Below, one piece after another: positions 18,654 through 20,482 of a stretch of 41,017 bases of DNA. Source of the stretch: Clostridium sp. Lineage in GTDB: Bacteria; Bacillota; Clostridia; Clostridiales; Clostridiaceae. The translations under genes and the position numbers were made by a program. The DNA lies in contig NZ_JABUTB010000018.1 of NCBI RefSeq assembly GCF_021443865.1, forward strand, positions 1 to 41,017. Direction: 5' to 3'. How positions within the stretch are numbered: position 1 is the stretch's first letter; each line of letters starts with the position of its first letter. The notes beneath the pieces are model-generated. The model did not search any database, was not told the origin of the DNA, and saw nothing but the letters and a program-made list of their open reading frames with translations.

Positions 18654-18860
18654 TTACCATTCTATTACAAGAACACTAACCTCATCTTTTGTTAAAGATA
18701 CCTTGTATCCATTAAAAATAAGCCAAGTTAAAAGTTCCTTTTGCATTTCTTCATTATTACAAACTATTAAAGCAGAAATCTTATTTAAATTCCTTTCTTT
18801 TGCATAATTAATATGATCTAAAATTTTTCTTTTTTGATTTAATATTAAATGGTCAACCAT
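18654..18860 (-). CDS. Small hypothetical protein
   Basis: MVDHLILNQKRKILDHINYAKERNLNKISALIVCNNEEMQKELLTWLIFNGYKVSLTKDEVSVLVIEW; SD GGAAGGGGAG. Confidence 0.55.
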   Translation of the reverse strand: MVDHLILNQKRKILDHINYAKERNLNKISALIVCNNEEMQKELLTWLIFNGYKVSLTKDEVSVLVIEW

Positions 18861-18963
18861 AAATATCTCCCCTTCCATAACCTATAATATTCCTATAAAT
18901 ATAATATTATGTTAATTATTTTCTGGGAAATATTTACATTTATAAATTAAAGAAGAGATATTT

Positions 18964-20388
18964 TTAATTTATATCTTCTTTAATTACTCCTATGGCAACA
19001 CCTAGTATACTTACATTTCTATTAGCTAAATCAATTGGTGAGTATAATGAATTGGCTGGCATCAATTTAGGATTTTCATCATTTAAATTTAATGTTTTTA
19101 ATGTAGCTTCACCATCTAAATTAGCAGCTACTATATCATTATGATTTGCATTTGCTTGCTTTTTGATTACAACCAAATCTCCGTTACAGATATTCTTATC
19201 TACCATGGAGTCACCCTTTACTCTTAATATAAAGGTATCCTTTCCTCTTTCAAGCCAGTACTTAGGTAAATAAAATGTACCTTCTATATTATCATTCATT
19301 TCAATAGGATTACCTGCAGCTATATTGCTAAACATAGGTAAGTCTACTAATTCCTCTTTATTATATATCGTATTATCATTATCAAATATTTCTTTATCAT
19401 TAGATGCTGTATCTATGTTAAACTCTACTATATCTTTATTTTTTAAATTTATATATTTGAATTTCTCTATAGTATTAATTACCTTCTTTTTCTTTTCAAA
19501 CTTTAACTTGAAGCTAAAGCTTTTTCCTTTAACATCAACACCTAGACTATTAAATTTTCTTCCTTTTATCATCCATGAGTTTTCTTTATTATTTAGTTCA
19601 CTATTAAGTATAAAGATAAAAGATGAATATGACTTTTCTTTATAAATAGCCTTTATAAAATCTATTTCAGCTTTAGTTAATCTTTCAATATCATCTAAAA
19701 ATACATGGCTGTATATACCATTGTATTTTTTTACATACTCAAGAGCAAATAGAATATGATCATATTTATCAATAAGTGAATTCATATATAGTTTATTATT
19801 ATACATATCTTTAATACTATAAATTGATTCTCTTGTATATGATGATTTCTTAATTCTATTTTTTCTGCCCTTTCTATCTACACTTAAATATTCCTCTAAG
19901 GTTAGATTACTAGCTTTAATCCATAATATTTCATCTAGTAAAAAATCTAATGTAGCCTTTTCAATAAACTTAGATTTTTTATAAAACTTCTCTATTTCAT
20001 CTTTTAAGCCTTCTAATATACTTAATGCTTCTTTTTTGTCTACTATTTTAAATACTTGTCCCTTTTCTCTTATATAAGCATTATAATATGTATTAATTAG
20101 TTCCTCAAAAGTCATTATATTTACTCTATTGGTTTCTAATGAAAATAATGAATAGAAATGTTCTTGATTATTTTCTTTATTATATAGATTATAAACATCA
20201 GTATTTTTACTATAATTAGAAGTAACAAATAGTATTTTATCATCTTCATAAAGGCAATAGTTATTTTCTAAGTTTAAAGCTTTATAAATTGAAGCTGTAC
20301 TTTTACCTGTACCTTCCTTACCCTTTAATACTTGATACCCGGATGATTTATGTCTTATAAACTTATTTTGTGCTTTAGTTAATTCCAT
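18964..20388 (-). CDS. UvrD/SF1-like ATPase half fused to a C-terminal LexA/S24 self-cleavage domain
   Basis: N-term LTKAQNKFIRH and Walker A GKEGTGKSTAS, Walker B-like HVFLDDIERLTKAEIDFI; C-term FSNIAAGNPIE (Ala-Gly site), VKGDSMVDKNICNGDLVVI (Ser), DGEATLKTL (Lys). Confidence 0.85.
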   Translation of the reverse strand: MELTKAQNKFIRHKSSGYQVLKGKEGTGKSTASIYKALNLENNYCLYEDDKILFVTSNYSKNTDVYNLYNKENNQEHFYSLFSLETNRVNIMTFEELINTYYNAYIREKGQVFKIVDKKEALSILEGLKDEIEKFYKKSKFIEKATLDFLLDEILWIKASNLTLEEYLSVDRKGRKNRIKKSSYTRESIYSIKDMYNNKLYMNSLIDKYDHILFALEYVKKYNGIYSHVFLDDIERLTKAEIDFIKAIYKEKSYSSFIFILNSELNNKENSWMIKGRKFNSLGVDVKGKSFSFKLKFEKKKKVINTIEKFKYINLKNKDIVEFNIDTASNDKEIFDNDNTIYNKEELVDLPMFSNIAAGNPIEMNDNIEGTFYLPKYWLERGKDTFILRVKGDSMVDKNICNGDLVVIKKQANANHNDIVAANLDGEATLKTLNLNDENPKLMPANSLYSPIDLANRNVSILGVAIGVIKEDIN

Positions 20389-20482
20389 GATTTCACCGCC
20401 TTAATACATGTCCAATTATTTATGTATTTTTATAATATATTTTATCTAGATTTCTGTCAAACAATAAAACAAATTATAATTA

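Follow-up and report, generated by a model that had tools for sequence, protein, structure and literature searches.

The locus and its expression signals

The window, that is, the whole stretch of 41,017 nucleotides of Clostridium sp. DNA analysed here, carries on its minus strand a gene for a 474-aa protein in which a diverged UvrD-type helicase lobe is followed by an S24 autopeptidase domain of the LexA/UmuD type (Table 1). A preliminary description made from the letters alone had the reading frame, strand and length right (18964-20388, ATG start). Upstream of the gene are ecfT/ecfA-type genes, and downstream are a 74-aa ORF, a DUF1622 gene and a 3-methyladenine glycosylase-like gene, all of them except DUF1622 being named by eye from the sequence. 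The 74-aa ORF (18654-18878, minus strand), of unassigned family, lies just downstream; its place beside the gene is conserved only in five near relatives. Proteins of the same layout number 57, the window's included, and were seen only in Clostridiaceae, so that the fusion is not a one-off. We refer to these as short forms, and to their larger relatives, treated below, as long forms.

Table 1. Features of the short-form gene and its product, in window coordinates
Feature	Position	Strand	Basis
Short-form gene, UvrD lobe-1-like + S24 autopeptidase, 474 aa	18964..20388	-	ORF with ATG start, homologue set, profile alignment
Sigma-A type promoter TTGACA-17-TATTAT	20432..20460	-	11/12 match; kept in near relatives
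Ribosome-binding site AAGGCGGTG	20394..20402	-	GGTGA conserved in close relatives (upstream alignment)
N-terminal domain, residues 1-292, diverged UvrD/Rep lobe 1 (1A with 1B insertion)	19513..20388	-	35/57 short forms match PF00580; aligns to long-form lobe 1; PADLOC NERD+UvrD 3.3e-5
Walker A GKEGTGKST, residues 23-31	20296..20322	-	Lys29 present in 56/57 short forms
Walker B position VFLDDIER, residues 229-236	19681..19704	-	DExx Glu replaced by Asp233
Linker, residues 293-349	19342..19512	-	Long-form lobe 2 and HSDR_N_2 nuclease missing here; Y-I-N/D-L-K strand before S24 common to long forms (profile alignment)
S24 (LexA/UmuD-type) autopeptidase domain, residues 350-470	18979..19341	-	PF00717 E=2.5e-30; PDB LexA/UmuD matches to 2.6e-20
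Predicted self-cleavage site I356-A357-A358/G359	19312..19323	-	Invariant in 57/57 short forms
Ser394, predicted nucleophile	19207..19209	-	57/57 short, 23/23 long
Lys431, predicted general base	19096..19098	-	57/57 short, 23/23 long

With the clostridial LexA box defined as GAACnnnnGTTY (PMC4234289), no box was found in the 250 bp preceding the gene, the best match having three mismatches, while lexA of this genome, which served as a positive control, carries the expected GAACATAAGTTT box. LexA control of the gene was ruled out on this basis and, judged by its sequence, the gene is outside the LexA (SOS) regulon. Across the short-form family LexA boxes were not in excess over shuffled upstream sequences; three distant short forms (L050, L053 and L063) have boxes with 0-1 mismatches, which we do not claim, since the overall number of such matches was not above that in the shuffled sequences. 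The upstream alignment disclosed no conserved palindromic operator at the gene's own promoter.

Beyond close relatives the short form has no constant operon partner, its neighbours being housekeeping genes, and neither a recurrent umuC-like gene nor a constant repair gene was found among them. In another branch of Clostridiaceae (L087, L092, L094, L106, L107 and L108), clpS, encoding a Clp protease adaptor, lies just downstream of the short form with gaps of 10-226 bp.

The S24 domain and its predicted cleavage site

The window protein scored 105 bits against PF00717 (curated cut-off, 23.3), and the domain was above cut-off in all the short forms, which bears out the fusion to a LexA/S24 domain noted in the preliminary description. 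The NCBIfam model TIGR00498 gave 119 bits against a cut-off of 111, the match coming from the C-terminal part only, and the NCBIfam UmuD model gave 82 bits, under its cut-off of 110. The Ala-Gly site, Ser and Lys that had been picked out by eye are A358-G359, S394 and K431. They are spaced by 35 residues from Gly to Ser and by 37 from Ser to Lys, the corresponding distances in Escherichia coli LexA being 34 and 37. I-A-A-G, Ser and Lys occur in 57/57 short forms although many of these are only 29-40% identical overall to the window protein; loss of these residues in orthologues, named beforehand as an observation that would speak against the proposal, was seen in none of the 57.

The cleavage site is lost or altered in three long forms that keep the domain, reading ISAD in L048, VSGD in L124 and IASG in L115, so that a requirement for folding does not by itself account for the invariance among short forms. 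These three (L048:5766-8204, L124:9013-11445 and L115:6065-8551), in which Ser and Lys remain, are natural variants that may not self-cleave. One short form (L058:6430-7815) lacks Walker A altogether and keeps the whole cleavage machinery. A RecA-driven self-cleavage switch is what we naturally infer from the invariant I-A-A/G, Ser and Lys.

The helicase-derived lobe and the long form

When searched alone, the window N-terminus had no library match above cut-off, Pfam included, the best being the PADLOC NERD+UvrD model. By homology it is nevertheless a lobe 1 of SF1 helicases, because its homologues match the UvrD N-terminal family (PF00580, best E=4.7e-21) and align to the long form. The profile comparison of short and long forms runs end to end (E=7e-149 for the full alignment), residues 1 to about 300 corresponding to UvrD lobe 1 and about 301-474 to the C-terminal S24 part. 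The UvrD/SF1-like half proposed in the preliminary description thus stands, as do the absence of SF1 domain 2 (lobe 2, with motifs IV-VI and the Arg finger, is absent, and about 320 long-form residues are without counterpart in the short form) and that of an HTH domain, for which domain-profile searches gave no match in the window protein or in the other short forms. An AlphaFold model built on a five-sequence alignment had a mean pLDDT of 36, too low to confirm the fold.

The label of ATPase, on the other hand, is misleading and not supported. The box read as DEAQ-like is in fact D-D-I-E, with Asp in place of the catalytic Glu. While the Walker A Lys is present throughout the 23 aligned long forms and in all short forms but one, the DExx Glu is found in 23/23 long but only 15/57 short forms, and the A-Q-S of motif III in 0/57, the window protein having LNSEL in that region. 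Since the catalytic Glu (absent in 42/57), the motif III Gln and lobe 2 are all gone, the lobe more likely binds ATP but does not turn it over; in the 15 short forms with a DExx Glu, a failure to hydrolyse would have to follow from the loss of lobe 2 and motif III. In sampled pairs dN/dS was 0.13-0.26 for the N-terminus and 0.03-0.13 for S24, the slowest evolving part. At an S24 identity of 0.6-0.7, the mean N-terminal identity was 0.42-0.43 among short forms versus 0.63 among long ones. The N-terminus is therefore more diverged and yet under constraint, which argues that the lobe is kept for something other than turnover, and its preserved P-loop chemistry hints at the binding of a nucleotide. 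The lobe resembles a pseudo-helicase that binds nucleotide and is maintained by purifying selection, and an architecture that is the same in 57/57 proteins at such low dN/dS is, on these comparisons, far beyond chance.

The long form (about 815 aa) has the domain order UvrD-helicase, UvrD_C, HSDR_N_2 nuclease and S24, and in the aligned set Walker A, the DESQ box, motifs III-VI and the nuclease E...D...ExK are intact or nearly so. It occurs in many Clostridiaceae, in other families of Bacillota and on one replicon of Fusobacteriota (Ilyobacter), where the protein (WP_013389202.1) is annotated only as an S24 family peptidase; this was also the single record with at least 80% coverage in the plasmid search, lying amid housekeeping genes on pILYOP01, a replicon of about 1 Mb. 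Helicase-only relatives are present as well (L038-L041, about 560-655 aa, and L045 and L049). In one genus of Bacillota the long form is of 844-861 aa (L190-L193; G571, G406, G550 and G528, contig C1) and, in the genomes found, sits no further than 12-33 kb from the beginning of the main contig, possibly at a hot spot for insertion close to the start of the chromosome. Recurrent neighbours of long forms are type IV restriction-like helicases, NERD-HRDC proteins, HNH proteins and Hhe-like proteins, and in an unselected sample PADLOC matched immediate neighbours of 2/10 long versus 1/10 short forms, so that a defence link of the long forms is suggestive only. Long forms with all motifs intact (among them L046:5942-8401, L114:5980-8430 and L118:5974-8427, about 815 aa) sometimes have as neighbour either a type IV restriction-like helicase (PLD-ResIII-DUF3427) or a NERD-HRDC protein, and these could be candidate defence modules with a damage fuse.

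As read from the alignment, the short form is the long helicase-nuclease-S24 protein minus lobe 2 and the nuclease. A tree of the N-terminal domain splits the short forms into two sets: 13, of the window's genus, branch from among the long forms of that genus, and the other 44, to which the window protein belongs, are placed separately. A single clade of short forms was rejected by an AU test (p=0.00067) run on 50 rows of the 86-row set, with long branches left out, and the S24 tree showed the same nesting with modest support. The short architecture thus arose at least twice, unless recombination mimicked this in both domains. The direction from long to short is likely, since the short form is seen only in Clostridiaceae while the long one ranges far wider and has the full UvrD fold. 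A phage origin was rejected, as scans of phage and viral contigs turned up helicases and S24 proteins only as proteins apart from each other. Some genomes carry both forms (for example G003, G004, G028 and G050); most of those with a short form, the window's included, are without a long one. That the motor half was lost independently at least twice, lobe 1 and the cutter being retained each time, speaks for a real function of the minimal pair, and the repeated origin of the pairing suggests a useful job.

Candidate functions and relation to known systems

We believe, at a probability of about one half, that the best explanation is a self-cleaving S24 protein with a degenerate SF1 lobe as its cargo, the intact protein acting via the lobe and cleavage triggered by RecA-ssDNA ending that activity. 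The S24 domains would dimerise the intact protein, and the lobe, nucleotide-bound, would hold or block a partner, be it ssDNA, an active helicase or some other factor of repair or transcription. Upon DNA damage, RecA-ssDNA would stimulate the cut between A358 and G359, which would separate the dimeriser from the lobe and end the block. The tails of cut LexA, -VAA or -LAA, are read by ClpX, and -IAA is a similar end; the freed lobe would end in -IAA and may then be destroyed. Such a brake would be released by damage directly at the protein level, bypassing LexA-controlled transcription. The protein might also be a decoy or a scaffold. The control of S24 proteins by damage and the removal of the LexA N-terminal fragment by ClpX are established (PMC10584840). 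Against an SOS tie of the short form we count the lack of a LexA box and of a constant repair-gene partner; and IrvR of Streptococcus mutans is reported to be an S24 protein that acts without RecA (PMC7101444), which counts against the RecA-dependent reading.

Other readings of the same evidence have to be weighed. UmuD requires merely a short N-terminal arm. If the C-terminal fragment were what matters, as in UmuD, cleavage would free an S24' that binds a polymerase or another repair factor and the helicase lobe would be only a mask or delivery module; the slow evolution of S24, which resembles UmuD as well as LexA, fits this, but a 290-aa lobe with an intact P-loop maintained in 56/57 proteins does not, nor does the want of a recurrent umuC-like partner beside the gene, and we hold it unlikely. 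Slightly less credit goes to the idea that the short form is left over from the long helicase-nuclease and has no function of its own, or that it acts as a dominant-negative subunit where a cell also has a long form: the descent from the long form and the genomes with both forms would agree with it, whereas a dN/dS well below 1, wide retention, repeated origin and the absence of a long form from most short-form genomes would not.

The classic S24 fusions of the same layout (LexA, CI) are repressors, and, S24 proteins apart, the profile of the short N-termini comes closest among solved structures to HelD, a motor of RNA polymerase (E=1.6e-5, for a stretch of just 41 residues), so that the lobe might bind DNA or RNA polymerase and repress or activate genes until cleavage. 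This we find a shade more improbable, in view of the missing HTH and the lack of a conserved palindrome at the gene's own promoter, and because the HelD match covers the P-loop region only while long forms match PcrA/Rep far better than HelD. Membership of the HelD family was ruled out on the extent of that match. The least probable reading is that S24 serves for dimerisation only, cleavage having been lost in the cell; S24 domains do dimerise, and the three long forms with a lost or changed site keep the domain, but the conservation of site, Ser and Lys in every short form, many of them distant from the window protein, is hard to square with it.

Repressors (LexA, CI) and polymerase subunits (UmuD) are the proteins known to us to undergo self-cleavage driven by RecA, and a helicase-derived cargo would widen the range of what DNA damage switches directly at the protein level. 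More tentative is the wider proposal that in Clostridia a self-cleaving helicase-nuclease of defence type was converted, more than once, to a small brake that damage releases, in which an ATP-bound pseudo-helicase lobe would block a partner in repair, replication or transcription until the self-cut induced by RecA-ssDNA. This would be an SOS output by protein cleavage alone, the lobe replacing the DNA-binding domain of a repressor. The long form is a candidate for a helicase-nuclease that carries its own damage fuse, an idea for how a dangerous nuclease may be restrained or triggered.

We found no description of a fusion of an S24 self-cleaver with an SF1 helicase, long or short, in the open literature, subscription journals being mostly outside the search; S24 self-cleavers and SF1 helicases are both known, and it is their combination that is apparently undescribed in open papers. 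With LexA (TIGR00498) the window protein shares the S24 domain, the Ala-Gly site, the Ser/Lys dyad and the layout of an N-terminal effector followed by a self-cleaving C-terminus, but LexA has a winged HTH where the window protein has a UvrD lobe. A true LexA is encoded elsewhere in this genome (L002; G000:C106); it has an N-terminal domain and a box of its own and is 37% identical to the window protein in S24, and the window gene is not the lexA orthologue. UmuD and HumD likewise have an S24 domain without HTH, but the window protein differs from them in its 290-aa helicase-derived N-terminus, in having no umuC partner and in its score under the NCBIfam UmuD cut-off. The Gabija GajB and the NERD+UvrD candidate of PADLOC have UvrD-type helicase homology in common with it; no S24 domain is known to us in these families, and inspection of the genes neighbouring the window gene showed no GajA partner. 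Lobe 1 and Walker A are homologous to those of the SF1A helicases UvrD, PcrA and Rep (PF00580), from which the window protein differs by the loss of the DExx Glu, the motif III Gln and lobe 2 (motifs IV-VI) and by the added S24. The long form, finally, is collinear with it at both ends and has the same S24 domain, but differs in its full helicase and nuclease motifs, its wider and more scattered range and its sometimes defence-like neighbours.
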